Positions 17,007 to 29,975 of a DNA stretch of 33,001 bases are shown piece after piece (position 1 is the first letter of the stretch; each line of letters opens with the position of its first letter). Source of the DNA: Alphaproteobacteria bacterium. Lineage in GTDB: Bacteria; Pseudomonadota; Alphaproteobacteria; Rhodobacterales; Rhodobacteraceae. The notes beneath the pieces were generated by a model, which did not search any database, was not told the DNA's origin, and saw only the letters and a list, made by a program, of their open reading frames with translations. The stretch is taken from contig JAUIDM010000007.1 of assembly GCA_030428915.1 (NCBI GenBank), forward strand, positions 1 through 33,001, written 5' to 3'. A program made the translations under genes and the position numbers.

Positions 17007-18191
17007 ATGATTCCTGTGACACCACTGGCAAACGAGAAGCCTTCAGCGCTCGCGACAGAAATTTCCGAGCGGTTGAATGCTGCCATCCGGGAGCATCTTC
17101 TTTCAGCTTTTGCCCCAGATAGCACCAAAACGCTACGGTCTTTTTCGGCACCTGAGGCGGCAGAACTTCTTGGGGTCTCCGGTCAGTTCATGCGAAAGGT
17201 GCACTCAGAGGGAACGATCCCAGAGCCCGAGGATATTCGTGGAGGGCGGCGCTATTACACGGCGCAGGAGATATGGGATGCACGAGAGATCTTAGAGAAG
17301 TCATCGCGCAAGAAAGGACGCTATCTGCCGCGTCGGTCTGGTGATGAGAAACTGCAAATATGGCAGTTGATGAACTTTAAGGGCGGCTCGAGCAAGAGCA
17401 CCACGAGCATCCATCTTGCGCATTATTTCGCGCTACGCGGCTATCGAGTGTTGGTCGTTGACCTCGATCCTCAAGGATCACTCACGTCCATGTGCGGCAT
17501 CAGCCCGGAAATCGAGTTTGATGGGCTGACTGTATATGACGCGATTCGCTACGACGATCCGGTCAGCATGGCCGATGTCGTTGTTCCCACTTACTTCCCG
17601 GGGATTTCTATTGCGCCGGCGCGCCTAATGTTGTCTGAGTTCGAGACTGAATCTGCAGTCCATTCGAACCCCGACCAGCCGTTCTTTACGCGGATCCGAA
17701 ATGCATTGTACCAAGTTGAGGATGATTTCGACCTTGTCTTGATGGACAGTCCGCCCCAGTTGGGCTTCTTGACAATCGCTGGAATGGCCGCCGCGAGTTC
17801 TCTGATTGTACCTCTAACCCCCTCGATGTTGGACGTTTCGTCGACCGCTCAGTTCCTCGAGCTCGCCGGGGCCTACATGGGGGTAATCGAGGACGCAGGC
17901 GCGACGTTGCAGTATGACCACTTCAAATTCCTGATCACTCGGGATGAGCCGACGGATGTTCCCTCACAGCAGCTGACCTCGTTTATGCGTGCGCTTTTCC
18001 AAGACCGCGTCATGTCTGCGACCGCTCTCAAGAGCACTGCAATCAGTGACGCGACCATGCTCAAGCAGTCCATCTATGAGGTTGTGCGCTCGGAAATGAC
18101 CCGAGCGACCTACGATCGTGCGAAAGGCTCGATGGATGCTGTGGGACAGGAAGTGGAAGTCATGATCCACCAATCATGGGGGCGTGAATAA
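17007..18191 (+). CDS. repA: RepA, ParA-family plasmid partition ATPase
   Basis: A 394-residue RepA of the repABC type. The N-terminal winged helix-turn-helix (SFSAPEAAELLGVSGQFMRKVH, then GGRRYYTAQEIWD, residues 45-91) binds the operator. The ParA ATPase domain follows: deviant Walker A KGGSSKSTTS at 125-134, LVVDLDPQGSLT near 153, and Walker B DLVLMDSPPQLG. RepA drives segregation with RepB and represses the operon. A GGGG about eight bases before the ATG is the only ribosome-site candidate. The stop TAA shares its last base with the repB ATG, giving tight coupling. Confidence 0.95.
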   Translation: MIPVTPLANEKPSALATEISERLNAAIREHLLSAFAPDSTKTLRSFSAPEAAELLGVSGQFMRKVHSEGTIPEPEDIRGGRRYYTAQEIWDAREILEKSSRKKGRYLPRRSGDEKLQIWQLMNFKGGSSKSTTSIHLAHYFALRGYRVLVVDLDPQGSLTSMCGISPEIEFDGLTVYDAIRYDDPVSMADVVVPTYFPGISIAPARLMLSEFETESAVHSNPDQPFFTRIRNALYQVEDDFDLVLMDSPPQLGFLTIAGMAAASSLIVPLTPSMLDVSSTAQFLELAGAYMGVIEDAGATLQYDHFKFLITRDEPTDVPSQQLTSFMRALFQDRVMSATALKSTAISDATMLKQSIYEVVRSEMTRATYDRAKGSMDAVGQEVEVMIHQSWGRE

Positions 18192-19162
18192 TGGCTAGGA
18201 AATCCCTTCGAGATATGTCGGGCATCGCGAGTACCATCGCGCGTTCCAGCAGCACTTCGGCCGAGAGGGTCCCCAAGACGAGCGCGCCTGCGTTAGGGGC
18301 TCTTCAGGGGTCACTTGCGTCTATCCGCGAGATCGATCCTGGTCTGATCGACGATTGGGGTCCCCAGGATCGGTTGGATGAGTTTACAGCTGTAAACGCC
18401 GAGGATGACGATGAGGGTTTTGAGGCGCTCAAGAACAGCATCCGTGAAGGCGGTCAACAGGTGCCAATCCTCGTTCGGCGCTCCAAAGCTGCCGAGGGGC
18501 GCTTCGAAGCGATTTATGGTCGCCGCAGGTTGAAAGCTTGCCGGGAGCTCGGAATTAAAGTCCGTGCCAACGTTCAGGATGTCGATGACGCCACGGCCTT
18601 GTTGGCCAAAGGGCTGGAAAATGCGGCACGTCGCAACCTCTCGTTTTATGAAAAGGCGCGCTTTGCTGAAGCTATCCAAGCCGCGGGGCACGAAAGCGCG
18701 ACGGTGCGCCAAGTATTGAATCTTTCTGCATCAGGCCATTCGCACCTGTCGAAGGTGACGCAGAATGTCCCGTCCAGAGTCGGAGACCTGATTGGTTCGG
18801 CACCCAAGTCCGGCCGGCCGAGGTGGACGGACTTGGCCGAGCTGTTCCTCGAGCGGAAGCTTACCGAGAAGATCGCGCTCAACTTGCTGGCCAATACTAG
18901 CACCTCATCGACGTCTGATGAGCGGTTGGAAGCGCTGATCAAGGAAGCAAGCAAACGCGGAACGAAAGTGTCCAGCGGTCCTCGTGAGATTACGCCGATG
19001 GATGGCGTTGTCATCAAAGCAAGCCGAGGGAGCGTGTCTCTTTCGGTGAAGAAGTCCGGCACAAGTGCCGAGTTCGCAAGCTGGCTTGAGAGCAACCTCG
19101 AGGACATCATCAAGAGATCCTACACCGAATTTACAGATGTAAACGCGGAGGATGACAAGTGA
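18191..19162 (+). CDS. repB: RepB, ParB-family centromere-binding protein
   Basis: A 323-residue RepB. The N-terminal 60 residues interact with RepA in this family. The ParB nuclease-like domain shows FEALKNSIREGGQQVPILVRR and YGRRRLKACRELG. A helix-turn-helix region follows (FAEAIQAAGHESATVRQVLNLS). The C-terminal domain should dimerise. Two parS-type palindromes lie inside the gene, at codons 64-69 and at the very end. Both encode near-identical short peptides: FTAVNAEDD internally and FTDVNAEDDK at the C-terminus. Its own binding sites are thus part of its coding sequence. Confidence 0.94.
   Translation: MARKSLRDMSGIASTIARSSSTSAERVPKTSAPALGALQGSLASIREIDPGLIDDWGPQDRLDEFTAVNAEDDDEGFEALKNSIREGGQQVPILVRRSKAAEGRFEAIYGRRRLKACRELGIKVRANVQDVDDATALLAKGLENAARRNLSFYEKARFAEAIQAAGHESATVRQVLNLSASGHSHLSKVTQNVPSRVGDLIGSAPKSGRPRWTDLAELFLERKLTEKIALNLLANTSTSSTSDERLEALIKEASKRGTKVSSGPREITPMDGVVIKASRGSVSLSVKKSGTSAEFASWLESNLEDIIKRSYTEFTDVNAEDDK
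18382..18397. other. parS: parS partition site 2, inside repB
   Basis: A second exact GTTTACAGCTGTAAAC, identical to the site before repA, here encoding part of FTAVNA in RepB. It matches GTTnnCnGCnGnnAAC. Confidence 0.85.
19129..19144. other. parS: Degenerate parS-like site 3, at the 3' end of repB
   Basis: ATTTACAGATGTAAAC differs from the other two sites at two positions (first base and position 9), both consensus positions. The arms TTTACA and TGTAAA are intact. It lies in the last codons of repB. Weaker binding than at sites 1 and 2 is expected. Confidence 0.6.
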
Positions 19163-19190
19163 GGACGAGCAGAAAGGAGGAAAGGTAAAC

Positions 19191-19222
19191 AAAGAAAACC
19201 CCCGAAACCGAAGCTTCGAGGG
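19191..19222 (-). terminator. Intrinsic terminator of the antisense RNA
   Basis: On the minus strand an 8-bp stem with one G-T pair (CCCTCGAA / TTTCGGGG) closes a 7- to 8-base loop and leads into TTTTCTTT. Confidence 0.75.
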
Positions 19223-19254
19223 CTGCTGCGCAGAGCGCAATTCTTAGATTAGAC
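19192..19254 (-). ncRNA. Counter-transcribed RNA controlling repC (incompatibility RNA)
   Basis: repABC plasmids encode a small antisense RNA between repB and repC. On the minus strand here, TTGTAT (19284-19289) and TAGATT (19261-19266) are separated by 17 bp and would start an RNA near 19254. About 60 bases on, CCCTCGAA pairs with TTTCGGGG across a short loop and is followed by TTTTCTTT, an intrinsic terminator ending near 19192. Position, length, orientation and terminator all fit. It would limit repC expression and determine incompatibility. Confidence 0.75.
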
Positions 19255-19337
19255 ACCTAGAATCTAGCAGCCAGTGAATCGCCATACAAGAGAAAACGCT
19301 TCTGAGCGAACGGGATTTCTTTGTCTGCTGACATAGT
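19223..19337 (+). promoter_or_regulatory. repC leader with alternative stems
   Basis: The repC mRNA leader complements the antisense RNA. GGCTGCT (19221-19227) can pair with AGCAGCC (19266-19272), and AGATT with AATCT inside. A short CGCT-tctg-AGCG stem lies further on, before TTTCTTT. Such competing stems are expected for antisense-controlled repC attenuation or start masking. Confidence 0.5.
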
Positions 19338-20696
19338 ATGGGAAAATTCAGTGGTGCTCCGTGTGGAGCGACTGAGGCAGGCATGCCTCAGCACGAGAGA
19401 GGTATGTCCATCGCATGGCAGCCCTCCGGTTGGCGCAAAGCCTCAGCAGGTCTCGCTGCCGCAGAGCAGCTTGCCCAAGCCGGTGAACGGGTAGCTGTAC
19501 CCAAAACGCGGGCCTTCGTGGCTGTGAAGCGGGTGGGAGCCTACATTGGCCTTAAGGCCGGAGACATGATGCTCCTCGACACGCTCGGGGCCTTTACCCA
19601 GGCCCAGGACTGGGAGGAGGGGCAACGCCCTATCGTCTGGGCGTCGAACGCCTATCTGATGGAGCAAACCGGGTTCTCGCTCTCCGCACTCAAGCGTCAT
19701 GCGCGGCGGCTGGCAGAGATTGGCGTGATCTCCTTCCAGGACAGCCCGAACGGCAAGCGATGGGGCCGCAGGGACGCCGAGGGGCGCATCGTCGAGGCCT
19801 ATGGCTTTGATTTGTCGCCGCTGTCGGCTCGTGTCGAGGAGTTCGAGGAGCTTCATGCCGATTTGCAGGCCGAGCGCGAGCTCTGTCAGCGCCTGAAGCG
19901 CCAGATCACGGTGGCACGCCGGATGATCCGCGCGCGGATCGAGGCGGCCGTCAGCAGCGCGCTGCGCGGGCCCTGGGCGCAATTCACGGGTCTCTTCGAA
20001 GATCTCCTAGGCCGGCTTCCGCGCCGTCACGAAGCCTCAGAGCAGCTTGCACGACTCTTGACTTGGTTCAAGGAGCTCCAGGAACGCGTCGAAGCTGCCT
20101 ATCTCAACGCAACTGAGGTCGCTCAACCTGTGGAAAACACGCACGAAACCAAGGAGCAAGTTCTCAAGAAGACTCAAGAAATGAACCCCAGGGAGGTCAT
20201 TTCTGACCCTCATATACTAATTACAAACCAACTTAATCCTGTAACTCGTAATTCCTCTGAAAATGAGGAAGTCGCGGCCGTGGTGCCCAATGCTCAGCCC
20301 GAAGATCAGGTTGATACGGAGCTGGAAGAATGGGTGGCCGAAGTGCGCAAGAAGCGCGCGGCGCTGGATCTGCCCACTGTGATGCAGGCCTGTCCCGAGT
20401 TCGCGTCCTGGGCGCGCAATATGGGCGGGTTCCTGAAGGATTGGAGCGATCTGCACCGGGTTGCGGGGCAGCTCAGGCCGATGATCGGGGTGTCCGAGCA
20501 TGCCTGGAACGTGGCGCAGGACCGGCTTGGCAAACAGGTGGCGACAGCGGCGCTGGCGCTTGTCTTCGAAAAGCATTGCACGGGCGAGGTTTCGTCGCCG
20601 GGCGGCTATCTGCGCGGCATGGTCGAGAAGGCCGGGGCAGGGGAGCTGCACCTCGAGCGCAGCTTCTATGGCAGGCTCAGCGAGCAGGCGGCGTGA
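19338..20696 (+). CDS. repC: RepC replication initiator
   Basis: A RepC-type initiator of up to 452 residues. Family sequence begins at SGWRKASAGLAAAEQLAQAGE and continues with KTRAFVAVKRVGAYIGLKAGDMMLLDTLGAFT and a winged-helix part (WASNAYLMEQTGFSLSALKRHARRLAEIGVISFQDS). The C-terminal domain contains LRPMIGVSEHAWNVAQDRLGKQVATAALALVFEKH and GGYLRGMVEKAGAGELHLERSFYGRL. The start is uncertain: 19338 lacks a ribosome site, 19383 has GAGG six bases upstream, and 19404 is also in frame. A strikingly AT-rich middle part probably contains the origin. RepC is the only initiator visible here. Confidence 0.93.
   Translation: MGKFSGAPCGATEAGMPQHERGMSIAWQPSGWRKASAGLAAAEQLAQAGERVAVPKTRAFVAVKRVGAYIGLKAGDMMLLDTLGAFTQAQDWEEGQRPIVWASNAYLMEQTGFSLSALKRHARRLAEIGVISFQDSPNGKRWGRRDAEGRIVEAYGFDLSPLSARVEEFEELHADLQAERELCQRLKRQITVARRMIRARIEAAVSSALRGPWAQFTGLFEDLLGRLPRRHEASEQLARLLTWFKELQERVEAAYLNATEVAQPVENTHETKEQVLKKTQEMNPREVISDPHILITNQLNPVTRNSSENEEVAAVVPNAQPEDQVDTELEEWVAEVRKKRAALDLPTVMQACPEFASWARNMGGFLKDWSDLHRVAGQLRPMIGVSEHAWNVAQDRLGKQVATAALALVFEKHCTGEVSSPGGYLRGMVEKAGAGELHLERSFYGRLSEQAA
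20110..20280. other. AT-rich stretch inside repC, candidate oriV
   Basis: Most of repC is GC-rich, but about 20150-20270 is clearly AT-rich, encoding a low-complexity linker with Asn, Glu and Ile. It contains CTAATTAC and GTAATTCC in opposite orientation. In repABC plasmids the origin has been mapped within repC in such an AT-rich region. The boundaries given are approximate. Confidence 0.55.
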
Positions 20697-20708: not shown

Positions 20709-21806
20709 TCAGAGCCCTGCGGCCTTGGTCAGGTTCACGCGGAACCGATCGCGGCGGCGCTGGTAGCGGCGGGTCATCTCGGCCGAAGCATGTCCGAGGT
20801 GCTTCTGGACATGGCGTTCGTCGATCTCGGCCGAACTGGCCAGCCCGGCGCGGAGCGAGTGCCCCGAGAACAGCGCAAGGCGCTCCTTTTCGGGCAGTTC
20901 GGAGCGGATGCCGGCGTCTAGGACCGTGCGCTTAATCAGCCGGGCAACATGCTTGTCGTTGAGCCGTGTATCGAGGGCGCGCTTGCCATCGCGCGAGGTC
21001 CCTACAAAGACAGGGCCGAAGTTGATCTTCGCAAAGTGCAGCCATTGCTCGAGAGCATGCACGGGGCAGGACTGATCCTTAGAGCCGCGGCCGATCTCGA
21101 CCTCGCGCCAACCTGTCTTCGCATTGAGGGTCAGGAGGGCGCCTTTCTCCATGATCTCTATCCAGCCGCCGGAATCCGCCGTGTCGTCCTTGTGGACGTC
21201 GAGGCTGACGATTTCCGAGCGGCGCAAGCCTCCGGCGTAGCCGAGCAGCAAAATTGCCCGATCTCGCAGCCCGCGCAGATCATAGGGCAGGGTGGCCACC
21301 ATCGCGAGGATGTCTTCTGCCAGGATCGCTTCCTTCTGCACCGGTGGGCGCGCGTGCTTGCGCTTGATCCCCGCCAGCACCGTGGCGATGTGTCGGTTCT
21401 TGCGGTCAAGGTTGAAACCGCGTTGCGAGTAGTTCCAAGCGAGGCCCGACAGGCGGCGGTCTATGGTGCCGACCGATAGGGCAGGGGAGGGGCCCGACCC
21501 GGACGCTAGGTCGGCGAGGTAGAGACCGACCATCTCGGGAGCGGGCGGTAGAGGTTCCACGCCTTTCATCCGGCACCAGCGCGCGAAGTGCGCCCAGTCC
21601 TTTGAATAGGCCTTCATCGTGTTGTCAGAAGCCGCTGCGCGCGCATAGTCGCGGGCCGTATCGACCAGCCGATCAAGCGTGCCGGAGCCGGCCACAAAGG
21701 ACGGCAGGCTCAAGGCCTCGCCGTCAGGGCGATCTCCCTCTTTGTCCTCGTTGGGCGAAGGCCCGATTGGCGGCTCTGAGCTCGATTTCTCGGTGTTTTC
21801 TGACAT
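20709..21806 (-). CDS. Tyrosine site-specific recombinase
   Basis: I place the start at 21806 (MSENTEKSSSEPP, 365 residues); the longer track start at 21938 would cross the palindromic promoter region. Residues 40-150 form a SAM-like core-binding domain (TMKAYSKDWAHFARWCRMKG). The catalytic domain carries the first Arg in AGGLRRSEIVSLD (about 195), HSLRAG (His316, Arg319), the HxxH-type HLGHAS (His339) and the nucleophile Tyr348 in TRRYQR. All active-site residues are present. Such recombinases beside repABC most likely resolve plasmid multimers, but integration of cassettes is possible. It converges on repC, and a symmetrical site sits in its promoter. Confidence 0.92.
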   Translation of the reverse strand: MSENTEKSSSEPPIGPSPNEDKEGDRPDGEALSLPSFVAGSGTLDRLVDTARDYARAAASDNTMKAYSKDWAHFARWCRMKGVEPLPPAPEMVGLYLADLASGSGPSPALSVGTIDRRLSGLAWNYSQRGFNLDRKNRHIATVLAGIKRKHARPPVQKEAILAEDILAMVATLPYDLRGLRDRAILLLGYAGGLRRSEIVSLDVHKDDTADSGGWIEIMEKGALLTLNAKTGWREVEIGRGSKDQSCPVHALEQWLHFAKINFGPVFVGTSRDGKRALDTRLNDKHVARLIKRTVLDAGIRSELPEKERLALFSGHSLRAGLASSAEIDERHVQKHLGHASAEMTRRYQRRRDRFRVNLTKAAGL

Positions 21807-21825
21807 GCCGCTGAGCATATCTTGC

Positions 21826-21856
21826 CATGTCCGATAATGCAAATTTATTGGACATG
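21826..21856. other. Candidate recombinase crossover site or operator (12-7-12 bp)
   Basis: CATGTCCGATAA, a 7-bp centre TGCAAAT, and TTATTGGACATG form two inverted 12-bp arms matching at 11 of 12 positions. The layout resembles tyrosine recombinase core sites (two inverted arms flanking a 6-8 bp overlap, with ATAA/TTAT next to the centre as in dif). It is 20 bp upstream of the recombinase start and overlaps the -35 of a plausible minus-strand promoter (TTGCAT, 17 bp, TATGCT). It may instead be, or also be, an autoregulatory operator. Confidence 0.6.
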
Positions 21857-21931
21857 ACTGCAGGGAACAGAGTGGGGCGGTTATGGCTTTAGTTTCTGGC
21901 GGAAAGCGCCGTCGTGATATAGGCTGCGGGC

Positions 21932-22816
21932 ATGACATTTGCCCGACCGGATCATATCAGCGACCTGGATACACTACCCCGGATGCCCGCCTGGGTCACC
22001 TCTGCGCGCGCTGAAGCCCTTGAAGATGTTGCGTTTTTGTCAGGCGCGGCGCTGAACCACCTGCATCTTGTGTTGGGACGCGAGGAAGTGCCCCAAACCT
22101 TGTTGCGGGACCGGCTCGCGCTGCGTGCGGCCGAGGCCTGTATGGTGTTTTCCGGGCGGCCGGAGCGGGAGGCGGAGCTGCGCGATGCCATATACCTTCT
22201 GCGCCCCGGCGATCTTCCGGGACCGGCGGGCGAAACCTACCTTGTCTGGCGGCGTGCGGTGGAGCGGCCGGTCTCGATCAAGACTCTGGCCCGAGCCATG
22301 CCGGCTTTCGAGGCGGGCCAGATTGCCGCGTGGCTGGATTCGGGGAAAGGGGCGCCGGTGACCCGGGCCGCGATGGTTTTGGAGGCGGCGCTGACGGAAG
22401 CGCCGCGTGCGGACGTAGCGGCGCTGATCCTTGCAGATGCGGCCCTCGCCCAAGCCCTCGGTTGGGATCATCTCGTGCCGCTGCTGGCCCCTTGCCTGAA
22501 ACGCGCCTACCTGCGCAAGCATGGCGATGACCTACGCTTGGCCTGTCATCGGGCACTCGTTTCTTCGGTGATCGAAGCCGTGCGGCAGGCCGCCGACCTC
22601 GAGCGTCGGGCGGCGCATCTCAAGGCAGTCGTGCCAAAGCTTCGGGCGAAAGGGGCGGGCGACTCGGTCGAGATGTTCCTGACCCGCGATGCTATGGCGC
22701 CTTCGGCTTTGCCCTTGACGGATCGCGCCGCGCGGCGGCTCTGTGACCGGTTGGTCGACCTCGGCGCTGTGCGCGAACTGACTGGCCGCGACACCTTCCG
22801 GCTCTACGGGGTGTAG
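21932..22816 (+). CDS. DUF1403 family protein
   Basis: A 294-residue, Ala/Leu/Arg-rich, largely helical protein. Features I associate with DUF1403 are ALEDVAFLSGAALNHLHLVLGREEVPQTLLRDRLALRAAEAC, then ELRDAIYLLRPGDLPGPAGETYLVWRRAVERP, and a C-terminal LTDRAARRLCDRLVDLGAVRELTGRDTFRLYGV. No membrane segment or signal peptide. It diverges from the recombinase and is followed after two bases by scpB, so the two are probably cotranscribed. Function unknown; the fixed company of recombinase and ScpB suggests plasmid maintenance. Confidence 0.85.
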   Translation: MTFARPDHISDLDTLPRMPAWVTSARAEALEDVAFLSGAALNHLHLVLGREEVPQTLLRDRLALRAAEACMVFSGRPEREAELRDAIYLLRPGDLPGPAGETYLVWRRAVERPVSIKTLARAMPAFEAGQIAAWLDSGKGAPVTRAAMVLEAALTEAPRADVAALILADAALAQALGWDHLVPLLAPCLKRAYLRKHGDDLRLACHRALVSSVIEAVRQAADLERRAAHLKAVVPKLRAKGAGDSVEMFLTRDAMAPSALPLTDRAARRLCDRLVDLGAVRELTGRDTFRLYGV

Positions 22817-22818
22817 CG

Positions 22819-23433
22819 ATGGTCAAGGGTCGCTCCGAGCCTGAATTTGACCGCGAGTTGTCCGACCTGCCGCCGGAGCTGCGCTGGCGCGAATGGATGC
22901 GGCGGATTGAGGCTGTGCTGTTTGCGTCCGCCTCGCCTGTACCGCGCGCGGATCTGGCGCGCATAGTGGGGCAGGGGGCCTCGGTTGATCTGCTGGTCGA
23001 GGATCTGGCCGCCGATCTAGACGGGCGGGCGTTCGAGATTGCCATGGTCGCAGGGGGGTGGATGTTTCGGACGCGGACCGCTTACGCGCCCGCGATCCGC
23101 GCAGCGGCGGATGTCGGCGGCCAGCTACTCGATCTGAGCGAATTCGACGTCGCGGTCCTGGCCGCCATCGCCTACCATCAGCCGATCACGCGCGACGGGC
23201 TCAAGGACATCTTCGGCAAAGAGATCACCCGGGACCTGATCGGGCGGCTGCATGCACACAGTCTGATTGGAACTGGGCCGCGCGCGCCGCGTCGTGGTGC
23301 CCCCTATACCTTCGTCACCACTGAGCAGTTCCTCGTCGCCTTCGGGTTGGAGAGCCTGCGCGATCTTCCCGATCGGGAGCAGTTGGAGGATGCGGGGGTT
23401 GTGGGCGAAGCGCAACAAGTTGATTTTGGCTAA
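22819..23433 (+). CDS. scpB: Plasmid-encoded ScpB-like segregation protein
   Basis: A 204-residue protein resembling ScpB, the kleisin-associated winged-helix partner of SMC-ScpA. The first winged helix begins WMRRIEAVLFASASPVPRADLARIVG, with LVEDLAADLDGRAFEIAMVAGGWMFRTR. The second has SEFDVAVLAAIAYHQPITRDGLKDIFGKEITRDLIGRLHAHSLIGTGPRAPRRGAPYTFVTTEQFLVAFGLESL. No plasmid scpA or smc is present, so it may work with host SMC or alone. A second fragment of an scpB-like C-terminus lies at 23667-23780. Confidence 0.88.
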   Translation: MVKGRSEPEFDRELSDLPPELRWREWMRRIEAVLFASASPVPRADLARIVGQGASVDLLVEDLAADLDGRAFEIAMVAGGWMFRTRTAYAPAIRAAADVGGQLLDLSEFDVAVLAAIAYHQPITRDGLKDIFGKEITRDLIGRLHAHSLIGTGPRAPRRGAPYTFVTTEQFLVAFGLESLRDLPDREQLEDAGVVGEAQQVDFG

Positions 23434-25069: not shown

Positions 25070-25987
25070 TCAGCCGAGGAGCTTCTCCAGCTCTTCCCTT
25101 TGGGCGGCATGCTTCTTGGGGTTCTCTGCTTTCAGCTTGTTCACGTTGATGAGCTTCCATCTGACCGCTGGAAGCTCGGCCGATTGAGGGCGGTCGATCG
25201 CGTCGAAGTCTGGATCGCCGTCATGCAGGGTTCTCAGAAACCTCTTCGCGCCCTCATCCAAGCGGGATTGGATATCACCGATCAGGCGGTCGCGCGTTGA
25301 GACCAATTCCGCAAGGTCGACCGCTTCCTTCGTCATTCCCTCGAATTCCCGCGCGTAGGGCTGATCAAGATCGATCAGGTTTGGGTTCAGCAATTCGTGC
25401 GGCGGGCGTGGGGAACTCGCGACGTAGATCAGAAAAGTGCGGAACAACGCGTCGGTAAACCCTTCATTCTCGTAGAGCAGTTTGACGTCGTAAAGGTCTC
25501 GCGGGTGCTGGCGATCAAGGGCTGCATGTAGCTTGCCGCCGAACAAATCCTCGAAGGAGACGATGTTCATCGCCGCATATCCGAACGCCTCCTCGACGGC
25601 TTCGGAGACTTCGCGTTGTTCCGGATCATGCACGACGCCCCGGGTGACGGGGGAGGTTTCGATCTTGATTTCGGCTGTCCCGAGGCGGGCGAGCGCACGC
25701 GTGGCGCCGCCGCCACCGCCGGCAATGCGCTGCGCTTTGGCGCCGGTGATTCCGCTTTCGATGGCGGCGGCAATCCGGTCCATCGCGTCGTTGATCTCGA
25801 CGAGGCTTTCGGCGCGGTCCTTGACAGGCAGATAGGTCAAATCGATATCGACCGAGAGGCGCGGAAGGTCGCGATAGAAGAGGTTGATGGCCGTCCCACC
25901 CTTGAGCGCAAATATTTTCTCCTTTGCGACATACGGCAGTATCCGCACGAGCAGCGCCACTTGGGCGGCATAGTCCTCACGCGCCAT
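25070..25987 (-). CDS. abiEii: AbiEii/AbiGii-type nucleotidyltransferase toxin
   Basis: A 305-residue protein starting at MAREDYAAQV; a track ATG at 25993 is an alternative. The nucleotidyltransferase motif is clear: ALKGGTAINLF (residues 28-37), then LSVDIDLTYL with Asp47 and Asp49. Further conserved parts are IVSFEDLFGGKLHAALDRQHPRDLYDVKLL and FLIYVASSPRP. AbiEii toxins modify nucleic acids, in studied relatives tRNA ends, and cause growth arrest or abortive infection. It overlaps the antitoxin end by 11 bases. Confidence 0.9.
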   Translation of the reverse strand: MAREDYAAQVALLVRILPYVAKEKIFALKGGTAINLFYRDLPRLSVDIDLTYLPVKDRAESLVEINDAMDRIAAAIESGITGAKAQRIAGGGGGATRALARLGTAEIKIETSPVTRGVVHDPEQREVSEAVEEAFGYAAMNIVSFEDLFGGKLHAALDRQHPRDLYDVKLLYENEGFTDALFRTFLIYVASSPRPPHELLNPNLIDLDQPYAREFEGMTKEAVDLAELVSTRDRLIGDIQSRLDEGAKRFLRTLHDGDPDFDAIDRPQSAELPAVRWKLINVNKLKAENPKKHAAQREELEKLLG

Positions 25988-26807
25988 GACCACGTTCCTT
26001 TCCTACAAACTCTTCGGGCACCATGATCCTGTAGCGCGGATGTATCTTGCCGCCTTTGACCAATGCGCGATCCCCGCTGCCTAGGTCGAACTCTTCCGGA
26101 TCGAGACGCTTGCGCCAGGCATGGTCGTGGCGGTCGGCAAACACGAAGAACAGGCGTTTGACCTTGATCTTCTTGCAACTTCTGAGCAGTGCCGAGAGGG
26201 TTCTCGGTCGCAACGTCGTCAGGCTTTCGAACACCATGTCGAGGTTGTGAAAGCTCTCCTGATCCGGCAACTCGTCCAGCGCCTCTAAGATCGCGCGTTC
26301 CGGCGAGGACATCACCAGTTTCCAGTCCCATGGCAGGGACGATGCTGTCTCGTTGAGATTATTTCGTGCGTCATTGACACCCAACTCTGGATCGGAGAAC
26401 AGCGATACGCTGCGTGTGCGGAGTTCGGCGTTGAGCGGCAGTTTTTCGAGCCAGTTGGGGATTTTTGAGGCGTAGAGCCAGACTGTGCTTTTGTCGCCGA
26501 GTGAGAGATAGTGCGCATAGCCTTGCAGGTCCAATGCCGTCGCCCCCCCGACATGGGCAGGGTAGTGCATGATGTGCTGGAGCGAGAGCAGGCAGGTCTT
26601 CCAATCGAGCGTATTCGTGGTGGCGCTGCCTGGAGAGGGACGGCGGAAGACGCCGCGTCCAAGGCGTTCTAGCCAGCCGCGTTGGACATAGGCGTAGGAC
26701 GAACGCCGGCCTATCCCGTGGTGCTCCAGCCAGGCGGAGTCCACGAGGAACCCCGTGGGGACAGCCTCAAGAAGGCTCTTTAATTTTTTGTGTTCTTGTC
26801 CACTCAT
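25977..26807 (-). CDS. abiEi: AbiEi-family type IV antitoxin
   Basis: A 276-residue protein. The N-terminal winged-helix domain (LLEAVPTGFLVDSAWLEHHGIGRRSSYAYVQRGWLERLGRGVFRR) is the AbiEi DNA-binding domain. The large C-terminal domain holds YPAHVGGATALDLQGYAHYLSLGD, SSPERAILEALDELPDQESFHNLD and a terminal FFVFADRHDHAWRKRLDPEEFDLG. It represses the operon and counteracts AbiEii without stable binding in studied cases. An upstream GTG at 26816 is an alternative start. Neither start has a ribosome site, and the sequence before them is AT-rich (AAAAATATATC), so a leaderless transcript is plausible. Confidence 0.88.
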   Translation of the reverse strand: MSGQEHKKLKSLLEAVPTGFLVDSAWLEHHGIGRRSSYAYVQRGWLERLGRGVFRRPSPGSATTNTLDWKTCLLSLQHIMHYPAHVGGATALDLQGYAHYLSLGDKSTVWLYASKIPNWLEKLPLNAELRTRSVSLFSDPELGVNDARNNLNETASSLPWDWKLVMSSPERAILEALDELPDQESFHNLDMVFESLTTLRPRTLSALLRSCKKIKVKRLFFVFADRHDHAWRKRLDPEEFDLGSGDRALVKGGKIHPRYRIMVPEEFVGKERGHGA

Positions 26808-26929
26808 AGACGACACAATGATATATTTTTAAAGAGAGCGCCACATGTTTCAGTGGAAACCCACAAAATAGTCGGTCAAGGATGGACAAATTTTTTCATT
26901 TTCAAAGAGACTGGTGGTTGTCGGCTCTG

Positions 26930-27069: not shown

Positions 27070-28137
27070 TTAAGTTCCTCCGGGCGTGCTAAGCGGTCCG
27101 TGGTAAAATGCAGCCGAAGCTCGAGGAGCATCAAAGAATGTCTCAAGCCGTTCGGCGTTTTCTTCGACAAGACGTTTCGCCTGCTGCGGAAGTTCGGCAC
27201 TCGCTCGCGTGAAGTCATCAAGTGCAATGGGTTCGAGCGTCGGAGCGGATGTCAGACGAAGCATGCGGTCTCGCCCGATCAAAAGTCCGGCCTGTCCAAG
27301 GGCGTTCTGGCTTTGCAGGTGCATTGCGCTCTCGATGATTGTTCTCCAGTGGAACATGCCGCCGCGCTTGATCTGACCGTCAGTCATACGAAGGTCTTGA
27401 TCGCCACAGCCTAGGCTCAGAATATCGATTTTGTGTCTGTCTACGTTGAAACAGCTCATGGCATCGACCAGCGCCACCATGACGGGGTTGTTCGCCCAAA
27501 CACCGCCATCGGCAAAGTGCCGGGTGCCGTTTCGGTAGGTCGAGAAGAATGTCGGCGCGGCTGACGTCGCCAATGCCACCGTAACCAGTTCTTCCTGCCA
27601 GTCGAGGCGGAAGTCAGGGTGGTGCGGGGTCTTGAGGACGTTGACCTCGTTGAACCCATCGAAGGCGGGAATGTTCAAACGCACATTGACCGAGCCCAGT
27701 GTCCTGTTGCCAAAGCGATCTCGAAGCGCTCGTTCCAAGGGTTCGCGGTTGTATCGATATACGGCAAGATCGCGGGCAAACTGGTAAGCGGATCGCATCG
27801 CGCGACCAAATCGAGTTGGCGGCGTCCAAGGCCGGGGAAATATTTCCGACCCGTGGCGCATATAGATCTCGAGAACCTCCTCGGCGCGCATCCCTGCTGC
27901 CATGCCGAGCGCGATTATTCCTCCGGTCGAAGTGCCGGCGATCATGTCGAAGTAGCTGGCTGCCGAACCGCCCTTCAAGAAACGACGCTCGCATTCCGCC
28001 AGCACTGCCGCAGGCAGAATGCCTTTTATGCCGCCGCCATCAATGGACAGTATGCGAAGATCATCTGCGGGCCATTCGAGTTGATCTCGACGGTGAAAGA
28101 TGGTGCCCTGCGAGCGGCGGGATTGAGGTTGTGCCAT
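27070..28137 (-). CDS. capV: CapV patatin-like phospholipase, CBASS effector
   Basis: A 355-residue protein. I choose the ATG at 28137 because GGAGAG precedes it; the track start at 28209 lies inside the E2 gene. The oxyanion motif DGGGIKG (33-39), the nucleophile elbow GTSTG (Ser70) and the catalytic DGG (Asp210 in HFADGGVWANNP) make a complete Ser-Asp patatin active site. CapV proteins are switched on by cyclic GMP-AMP-type dinucleotides and degrade inner-membrane phospholipids, killing the infected cell. It is the last gene of the CBASS operon. The stop lies next to the junction repeat. Confidence 0.93.
   Translation of the reverse strand: MAQPQSRRSQGTIFHRRDQLEWPADDLRILSIDGGGIKGILPAAVLAECERRFLKGGSAASYFDMIAGTSTGGIIALGMAAGMRAEEVLEIYMRHGSEIFPRPWTPPTRFGRAMRSAYQFARDLAVYRYNREPLERALRDRFGNRTLGSVNVRLNIPAFDGFNEVNVLKTPHHPDFRLDWQEELVTVALATSAAPTFFSTYRNGTRHFADGGVWANNPVMVALVDAMSCFNVDRHKIDILSLGCGDQDLRMTDGQIKRGGMFHWRTIIESAMHLQSQNALGQAGLLIGRDRMLRLTSAPTLEPIALDDFTRASAELPQQAKRLVEENAERLETFFDAPRASAAFYHGPLSTPGGT
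27085..27106. repeat. Junction repeat, right copy (3' end of capV)
   Basis: CGTGCTAAGCGG followed by TCCGTGGTAA, inside the last codons of capV (YHGPLST). One base differs from the copy at 25027-25048. Confidence 0.85.
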
Positions 28138-28630
28138 GAAATCTCTCCATAAGTACCGCCAACCTGGATCGCTCGCCTGACTGACTTCTGATGTGTTTGC
28201 CGGTCCCAAACCATTTTCCCGAAGCGAGCCAGCTTTCGTAGCAGCTCAGCCAGTTGGACGCCCAGGGAATGGTCGTATTGCTGATCAGGTCATCTGGCGA
28301 CCACTGATCCGCTTCGTTGTCGAAGAGGCAGAGGAATGGCCCCGTACGGTCTGTTCGCGGATGTGAAACGTAAACATGCGGCAGGGACCCTTCTTCGTTG
28401 CCGAAACGCCTTTGCAATGTCGGTTCAAGAACCTCAACCAGTGGCTGCAGGTACAGGTTTGATCTGCCTTCAAGCAGTAAGGGTTCCGTATATTCTACCC
28501 GCAGCCGGTACATCGTTCTGTGTGGCTGCAGATGCCCTTCCCAAACGCAAGTTCGCTGGCTCAGCCGGTCGCATGACCATTCAGGATAGACATCGGCCAT
28601 GTCCGCAATCTGATCACCAACAGTTATCAT
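28061..28630 (-). CDS. E2-like conjugating enzyme of a type II-short CBASS
   Basis: A 189-residue protein with the pattern of prokaryotic E2 domains in CBASS: VWEGHLQPHRTMYRLRVEY (beta-strands), LVEVLEPTLQRR, LPHVYVSH, the probable catalytic Cys101 in GPFLCLF, DQWSPDDLI, and a hydrophobic IPWASNWLSCYESWLASGKWFGTGKH. No E1 or JAB domain is fused, which defines the short, E2-only type. In characterised systems it links the CD-NTase C-terminus to targets and raises its activity. It overlaps the CD-NTase by 17 bases and CapV by 77. The last 44 residues are Arg/Ser-rich, unlike the fold. Confidence 0.85.
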   Translation of the reverse strand: MITVGDQIADMADVYPEWSCDRLSQRTCVWEGHLQPHRTMYRLRVEYTEPLLLEGRSNLYLQPLVEVLEPTLQRRFGNEEGSLPHVYVSHPRTDRTGPFLCLFDNEADQWSPDDLISNTTIPWASNWLSCYESWLASGKWFGTGKHIRSQSGERSRLAVLMERFHGTTSIPPLAGHHLSPSRSTRMARR

Positions 28631-29975
28631 CAGGTACAGTGCCCCCCATGTTCGTATTCGCGCGTGCAGGCTTCACGAGGCCTGGTGCGGATGCGATCCC
28701 AGCACCCAGAGCTGGAGCAGCCAGGGACGAAACAGGTGCCGCAGGTTTCAAATGCCCGCTCGGTGTCATGCCGAGCGCACCATGTTCGAGCTGGACAGTC
28801 TGTGCGCGATGATAGGCCTGCAGAGCGGTCTCGCCGGCCCTTTCGCCGAACAAATCGTCGAACGTCGATTGGATAACCGCAGGATCGAAGCCAACCCGCT
28901 TCAGGTTTTCGAGGCGTTCGATGAGGGTGAGCAAGTCCGCCGCCCAAAGCTGCTGGTCGCTCCTTTGAGCCGGCCAACGATCGGTAAAGAGGTCCGGGTA
29001 ATGTGCCGGATTGCGAACTTCCAGCAACCGCAGGTTCTGTTCGGCATTGCGGATCTGCCAGCGCATCCGCTTGGCAATCGCAATCACCTCATCGACCAGG
29101 CTATCGTTTGCAGGGCCGGCATCGATTGCAATCGCTGCGATAATGACGGCCGGGGGTTTGCGTTTGCCACGGTGATCGTCGTGCTTGCGATAGCGTTTGT
29201 CGCGGAACCTCTTGATCAGTTGCAGGGCAACCACGCGAGGCGATTTCTGGTCGAGCGGGACATGCACCGGCATCGGTTGGGTATCTGCCTTTTGCAACGC
29301 CAGACCAGACGTCTCATTTGAAAGCCGCGTGGCCAGTTCGGTGTAGGTTTCGCCGTCTACGAGGTAACGACGCGCATCGAAGCGCTTCTGAAACGCCTCG
29401 CTGATCTCGACGCGAGCATTGAAGTGATCGGCAAACCCCTTCGGATTGATCTCCTTATGGTACCGCTCGTCCGTCTCAGGCTTGTAGTGAAACAGGGTCG
29501 CCACGCGTTCTGGTGCCCCATCGATGCGAACGACCGGCATCAGATCGACCGTGACGCCGTCCGGGTAGGTAACCGTGACACAGCGACTGTTTTTCTCAAT
29601 CAGGTAGTCGTAGTACTTGCTGCCTTCTTCCCCCTTGATCGCTTTGTACAATTGTTCAAGCACCCATGCCGGGTCGGTGCCAGGAGCGATCGCGATCTCA
29701 AGCACGGCATCAACGTCGTGCTGGTCGGTCTTCAGGCGTGACCGTGTCGCGGCGTGGATTGCAAAGCTGCCAGAAGGGTAGATCTCAAGGACCAAATCTT
29801 CGAGAGGGCTTCCAGGGCGGTCGACATGCTGAGCGAGCCCGCGAAAATGGCGGTCAGCTTCGTCGTGCATAGTGCGTGTGATCTGGATGGCACGTGCAAC
29901 GTCCATCAGCGCAGCTTCTACAGGGTCGATCTCCAGGCTGCGGGCGAAATCTTCGAGGTTCGTCCTGATATTCAT
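28614..29975 (-). CDS. CD-NTase (cGAS-like cyclic nucleotide synthase) of CBASS
   Basis: A 453-residue protein. The polymerase-beta-like active site is complete: GS at 69-70 (YPSGSFAIHAATR), Asp87 and Asp89 in HDVDAVLEI, and Asp144 in TVDLMPVV. The helical C-terminal half includes VVALQLIKRFRDKRY and AVIIAAIAI. After about residue 405 an Ala/Pro/Gly-rich, probably disordered tail runs to the end, which reads NMGG followed by eight more residues ending DDNCW. It makes a cyclic di- or oligonucleotide on phage infection that activates CapV; the product cannot be read from sequence. First gene of the operon; divergent from the XRE regulator. Confidence 0.92.
   Translation of the reverse strand: MNIRTNLEDFARSLEIDPVEAALMDVARAIQITRTMHDEADRHFRGLAQHVDRPGSPLEDLVLEIYPSGSFAIHAATRSRLKTDQHDVDAVLEIAIAPGTDPAWVLEQLYKAIKGEEGSKYYDYLIEKNSRCVTVTYPDGVTVDLMPVVRIDGAPERVATLFHYKPETDERYHKEINPKGFADHFNARVEISEAFQKRFDARRYLVDGETYTELATRLSNETSGLALQKADTQPMPVHVPLDQKSPRVVALQLIKRFRDKRYRKHDDHRGKRKPPAVIIAAIAIDAGPANDSLVDEVIAIAKRMRWQIRNAEQNLRLLEVRNPAHYPDLFTDRWPAQRSDQQLWAADLLTLIERLENLKRVGFDPAVIQSTFDDLFGERAGETALQAYHRAQTVQLEHGALGMTPSGHLKPAAPVSSLAAPALGAGIASAPGLVKPARANTNMGGTVPDDNCW

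Follow-up and report, generated by a model that had tools for sequence, protein, structure and literature searches.

What is the function of the short palindrome that separates a tyrosine recombinase gene from a divergent gene of the DUF1403 family on a plasmid of the Rhodobacteraceae? The stretch of DNA that we analysed (the window, 33,001 nucleotides of contig JAUIDM010000007.1) is a RepABC plasmid. Plasmids of this type are the principal large plasmids among Alphaproteobacteria, and it is common for marine Rhodobacterales to hold several of them together. On the recombinase side of the site, the plus strand carries the replication and partition operon (17007-20696; NCBIfam TIGR03453, TIGR03454 and NF040974), consisting of repA (17007-18191), repB (18191-19162) and repC (19338-20696). 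It is followed by the recombinase gene on the minus strand (20709-21806, 365 aa; Pfam Phage_integrase, 1.3e-15), whose product is predicted to act at the palindrome. To the right lie the gene for a DUF1403 protein (21932-22816, plus strand, 294 aa; PF07183, 7.7e-105), a candidate accessory or regulatory DNA-binding partner, and downstream of it a ScpB-like gene (22819-23433, plus strand; PF04079, 5.4e-33), an order that is kept in most loci. Near the scpB end of the module, the minus strand encodes an AbiEi/AbiEii type IV toxin-antitoxin pair (25070-26816), and an AbiEii gene is found near scpB in plasmids of Sulfitobacter alexandrii too. Adjoining genes on the minus strand (27070-29975) encode a patatin-like phospholipase and a SMODS nucleotidyltransferase with a weak match to CBASS cyclases; these look like a CBASS defence pair.

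The palindrome at 21826-21856, a feature to which no strand is assigned, reads CATGTCCGATAA-TGCAAAT-TTATTGGACATG. Its two 12-bp arms (21826-21837 and 21845-21856) differ by one mismatch and enclose a 7-bp spacer, TGCAAAT (21838-21844), the predicted crossover region. The two-armed 12-7-12 site with a 7-bp centre that a preliminary description of this DNA had pointed out is thus real, and it does adjoin the recombinase gene, whose frame begins at 21806, leaving 19 bp to the 12-bp arm (20 bp in that description). As a bare palindrome it is unexceptional: six further 12-bp inverted repeats in the window match at 11 or more of 12 positions with spacers of 0-9 bp, although some of these are a single repeat counted in overlapping registers. 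In 100 dinucleotide-shuffled versions of the window, no match to the core sequence within 3 mismatches arose, a comparison that tests the exact sequence only. The significance of the core comes from its conservation elsewhere and not from palindromy as such. It recurs in 15 viral contigs, in a second copy in the same genome, and in at least 116 stretches of genome contigs matching the scan pattern TGTCCRATAA-N7-TTATYGGACA, for which we estimate about one chance match in that collection. The arm identity of this sampled set is given by construction of the pattern; the spacer, position -1 and the accessory repeat described below are not part of it. In the aligned genome loci, the conserved arm is (A)TGTCCRATAA.

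The recombinase carries the catalytic R-K-HxxR-H/W-Y set of tyrosine recombinases. Among 30 aligned proteins (29 homologues and the query), R195, H316, R319 and Y348 are invariant and K230 and H339 are kept in at least 90%, with K230 as the presumed hairpin lysine. The best solved-structure match of the recombinase profile is Cre (1.6e-22, positions 31-353, nearly full length), and the protein is also homologous to TnpS of Tn4651 (E 2e-16), with 26% of 316 aligned columns identical. Against curated cut-offs it scores 53 bits where XerC demands 335 and 46 where XerD demands 330. Viral contig L007 encodes a relative (37-38% identity) at a distance of 72 bp from a core whose arms are the same. 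Could the palindrome nonetheless be a dif-like site served by the host’s chromosomal XerC/XerD, as on many small plasmids? The ATAA/TTAT beside the centre and the similar length would fit such a site, and the XerC and XerD models do match the enzyme distantly. However, the XerC and XerD arms of dif-type sites differ from each other while the arms here are near-identical, and the site travels with its own recombinase, which falls far below the XerC/XerD cut-offs. We regard a dif-like site as highly unlikely.

Beyond the core, the conserved unit is larger than the preliminary description had recognised: its crossover core is retained here, but a second inverted repeat (21876-21911) and the DUF1403 partner had been overlooked. 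In 92 of the 116 genome loci listed, the inverted repeat GGCGGTTT-N19-AAAGCGCC stands at a fixed distance behind the core TGTCCGATAA-N7-TTATYGGACA; beyond the repeat come DUF1403 and then scpB, with the tyrosine recombinase gene running divergently on the core’s other side. In the window, the left half of this accessory repeat (21876-21883, plus strand) reads GGCGGTTA, against a consensus of GGCG[G/C]TTT, and the right half (21903-21911, plus strand) reads AAAGCGCCG, with 91-97% conservation per base over GCGCC-G. The left half begins 48 bp from the core start in 80 of the 92 composite loci (78 with the two halves at offsets 48/78, two at 48/79), and across these loci the accessory repeat is as fixed in position as the core itself. 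DUF1403 starts at offset 104 from the core in 59 of them; the distance from core to DUF1403 hardly varies, and that from core to recombinase ranges from about 22 bp to several kb. Position -1 of the core is A in 87% of sampled loci. The spacer, read towards DUF1403, is mostly [T/G]GCAAAC (51/92), and the central 7 bp are conserved in orientation. Elsewhere to the left of the core or between elements, most columns carry less than about 0.5 bit of information. The composite site, its fixed geometry and its gene linkage are direct observations; the site measures about 105 bp, from 21826 to about 21930, and is very probably a recombination site with the palindrome as its crossover core.

The exact core was found in 17 of 150 genomes of the family and DUF1403 in 30 of 150, with all 17 among the 30 (P about 1e-14). 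On other plasmids with the same recombinase, where the preliminary description had suggested looking for the site, it is indeed present, on many related plasmids.

Since the site fills a divergent promoter region, it has to be asked whether both inverted repeats are simply operators of the two promoters, any joints found at the core being homologous recombination in conserved DNA. The conserved elements that run up to the DUF1403 start do look promoter-like, and column conservation suggests a possible -10 element for DUF1403, TAGGCT (21920-21925, plus strand), 7 bp before the ATG; this candidate element is missing where DUF1403 is missing. A consensus scan of 21700-22000 returned no sigma-70 promoter, including for DUF1403, and the earlier proposal that the palindrome overlaps the likely -35 of the recombinase gene was not borne out, no sigma-70-like promoter scoring there. 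Against an operator-only function, the site is retained without either gene. The accessory repeat is kept without DUF1403 at two loci on plasmids of the RepA type (PF10134; L024 and L032), at locus L108, and in phage contigs L002, L003, L012 and L015, so that it belongs to the site itself and is more than a DUF1403 promoter. Some composite sites have no recombinase nearby (L024, L032, L108 and others), which counts against a crossover function unless such plasmids depend on a recombinase supplied in trans or their site is a relic. The oriented conservation of the central 7 bp likewise speaks against operators alone, an explanation that we consider improbable and that the joints and transposon insertions described below make harder to hold.

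The viral occurrences raise a different alternative, namely that the palindrome is an attP/attB-like integration site of a mobile element and not a resolution site. Three N4-like phage contigs carry the full composite site (L002:5491-5517; L003:4709-4735, in a 72-kb contig; L015:326-352), together with N4-like genes for virion RNA polymerase (vRNAP), primase, ssDNA-binding protein and a RuvC-like resolvase. We found no recombinase or DUF1403 in the examined stretches of these three contigs, and the phage collection gave no meaningful match to the phage-borne sites. Cores in phage contigs, some with the accessory repeat, are what an integration site would lead one to expect; however, no copy was seen to flank an inserted element, about 1 Mb of loci yielded hardly any further degenerate cores, and one site per plasmid is usual (191 records, 200 places). 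Integration is accordingly a very unlikely primary role. Other viral contigs (L001, L006, L008-L011, L013 and L014) have the exact core, with neither the accessory repeat nor a related recombinase in the stretch examined. Near-identical core arms also appear in Bacillus, once as two cores 51 bp apart (L055:7865-7942) and once with an adjoining Xer-like tyrosine recombinase (L098:6631-6657).

Is there evidence that DNA has been joined at the core? In Dinoroseobacter shibae DFL 12, the coexisting plasmids pDSHI01 and pDSHI03 agree over 61,466 bp without mismatch from core base 1 rightwards; to the left of the core, one base matches and the sequences are then unrelated, with different recombinases. 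Homology that begins exactly at the core implies an older joint there. The published passages on these sister plasmids describe shared regions of >50 kb (PMC4886583) and an origin by plasmid duplication and recruitment of a new RepABC module (PMC5513947), and in those passages a border at the core is not mentioned. Two coexisting plasmids of Sulfitobacter alexandrii AM1-D1 are identical over 6,566 bp from core base 2, with core base 1 differing, and on the recombinase side they are 78% alike, 27 of the last 52 columns beside the core matching. Three cross-species pairs (L038/L078, L031/L044 and L099/L116) are 91-100% alike over 75 bp up to the core and then diverge, and the pair L035/L086 switches at the core in the reverse sense. 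Sequence in the 20 bp from core to accessory repeat goes with the right flank, and the base just left of the core goes with the left flank, a division that operators alone would not explain. One pair counts against the core model: L089 and L106 have a common left flank but a different first spacer base (T/G), a combination incompatible with a strict overlap of 7 bp. The joints could also partly reflect homologous exchange or gene conversion that stopped where homology stops. A global left/right correlation of flank similarity over all pairs gave little separation, and pairwise joints were used instead; a gapped end-free alignment of 300-bp flanks produced artefacts and was not relied on. The Gemmobacter fulvus plasmids p4 and p5 (L173, L174) share a 6,547-bp block at 100% identity that comprises recombinase, site, DUF1403, scpB and a Tni transposon; being identical on both sides, this pair was rejected as a joint and is uninformative on the core.

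Plasmid records with two cores were examined in five cases. CP081132, CP139710 and CP151764 hold inverted pairs with equal spacers, CP020696 a direct pair with unequal spacers (TGTAAAC and CGCAAGG), and CP010728 an inverted pair with one decayed arm. These arrangements are as expected if direct pairs with equal spacers are deleted, in a sample that is small (n=5). The two inverted sites of CP081132 (L142, L144) agree from the core to the end of the first accessory half and diverge beyond it, a possible trace of exchange or conversion between the two.

A further observation comes from transposons. A strict screen for breakpoints at BLAST ends returned only transposon-bearing pairs on the left side, which led us to notice that in 12 loci a Tni transposon has its end (ACGACA) on the recombinase side of the core, at a distance of 28-30 bp; CP081132 also has a Tni end at this distance. 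These elements carry Mu-type TniA, TniB and TniQ. The DNA between transposon and core is mostly different from locus to locus, which suggests repeated insertion. Elements of the Tn5053 family, the res-site hunters, are known for their preference for resolution sites (PMC7765201), and the clustering of ends at -28 to -30 by the core is what would be expected of a target of Tn5053/Tn402-type res hunters. We read it as circumstantial support for occupation of the core in the manner of a resolution site, and insertion at a fixed distance is one more point against operators only; alternatively, a transposon protein may read the DNA directly. Where a transposon intervenes between core and recombinase, no second degenerate core was found there, and in L106, the one locus inspected by eye, there were no direct repeats at the two insertion ends. 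Inside the left end of the Tni transposon, before tniA, a half-core-like ATTATCGGACAT is present (L100:3200-3330, also L106). With natural joints falling on the core, Tni insertions at a fixed distance, and the same site and recombinase on many plasmids, the earlier reading of the palindrome as a crossover site gains support, and we consider it very likely that the core is the crossover site of the adjacent Cre/TnpS-like recombinase.

What binds the accessory repeat is a separate matter. DUF1403 is the likeliest candidate. Its C terminus has a weak, sub-threshold match to Pfam HTH_13, and its structure model (pLDDT 91) comes closest to winged-helix-bearing members of the Fic family (best E 5.5e-5; TM 0.5-0.6 and rmsd 8-11 A among the four leading matches), a resemblance that is only suggestive of a Fic-family-like, winged-helix fold. 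A comparison with TnpT listed no match at E up to 10, and the literature searched yielded no paper on the DUF1403 gene. From its position, the weak HTH/winged-helix resemblance and the analogy with rst of Tn4651, binding of DUF1403 to the second inverted repeat is a proposition that we hold to be evenly balanced. It would compete with binding by the recombinase itself, on the model of TnpI in Tn4430 and Tn5401, which is compatible with the core as crossover site. The accessory repeats of TnpI resemble their core arms, whereas GGCGGTTT/AAAGCGCC are unlike the core arm TGTCCGATAA; the retention of the repeat where DUF1403 is missing points the other way, and single-protein accessory control is known for TnpI (PMC7157771). 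This second possibility appears to us the less probable of the two.

With the core as the place of crossover, recombinase made from the divergent gene would sit as two pairs on the arms (11-12 bp each, four in all) of two copies of the site, and strands would be exchanged over the 7-bp spacer. The second inverted repeat, 20 bp right of the core, would be the target of a partner, DUF1403 being the likeliest, that would restrict the reaction to directly repeated sites, such that multimers and cointegrates would be resolved. Resolution of this kind is likely to be the main purpose of the system. In the window, the replication module is on one side of the core and the remaining backbone on the other, and a crossover between plasmids would therefore re-pair both blocks; the system probably also swaps large plasmid blocks. 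Occupation of the divergent promoter region may control the expression of the two genes, and repression of the recombinase gene by binding at the site, as the preliminary description had envisaged, is plausible from position, with the case for and against it about equal. More tentatively, the site could be a shared exchange point that re-pairs replication modules and backbones across the RepABC plasmids of Rhodobacterales, with recombinase-less plasmids and N4-like lytic phages using or decoying the resident recombinase, and DUF1403 could be a Fic-derived DNA-binding protein and as such a novel kind of tyrosine-recombinase accessory factor; we think this broader picture possible rather than probable.

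A widespread RepABC maintenance module thereby gains a probable recombination site, a probable enzyme and a probable partner. For the D. shibae sister plasmids, one border of the shared block is exactly this core, which provides a concrete junction. The Tni ends suggest that res-hunting transposons can track a tyrosine-recombinase site, and the site itself is short and defined, and hence suited to testing and to genetic tools.

How does this arrangement compare with known systems? In TnpS/TnpT with rst (Tn4651 of pWW0, Tn3 family), the site lies between divergent genes and consists of two inverted repeats, with crossover at one of them (PMC7157771). The plasmid site shares this layout of two inverted repeats between divergent recombinase and partner genes, and its enzyme is homologous to TnpS. 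However, DUF1403 has no similarity to TnpT, the rst sequence differs from the plasmid site, and the site is carried by RepABC plasmids as a stability module; no Tn3 transposase was found among the larger ORFs of the window that were scanned. The loxP site has an 8-bp centre and needs no accessory element. Cre is the best structural match here and the core is likewise symmetrical with a directional centre, but that centre is 7 bp long and is accompanied by a conserved accessory repeat and a partner gene. The 12-mer of Tn5401, ATGTCCRCTAAY, resembles the core arm of the RepABC plasmid site. TnpI/IRS of Tn4430 and Tn5401, which resolves cointegrates, also has a palindromic core with extra repeats on one side (PMC7157771), as does the site described here, although its accessory repeats differ from the core arms and its partner gene is separate and divergent. 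With the XerCD plasmid sites (cer, psi, dif-like), it has in common a core with accessory sequence and, probably, a role in multimer resolution, whereas its arms are near-identical and its recombinase is dedicated and lies outside XerC/XerD by curated cut-off. By analogy with these systems, the best reading is a plasmid resolution site with a TnpS/TnpT/rst-like layout and an unrelated partner, DUF1403; what is new relative to them is the different partner, the different site sequence and the RepABC plasmid home.
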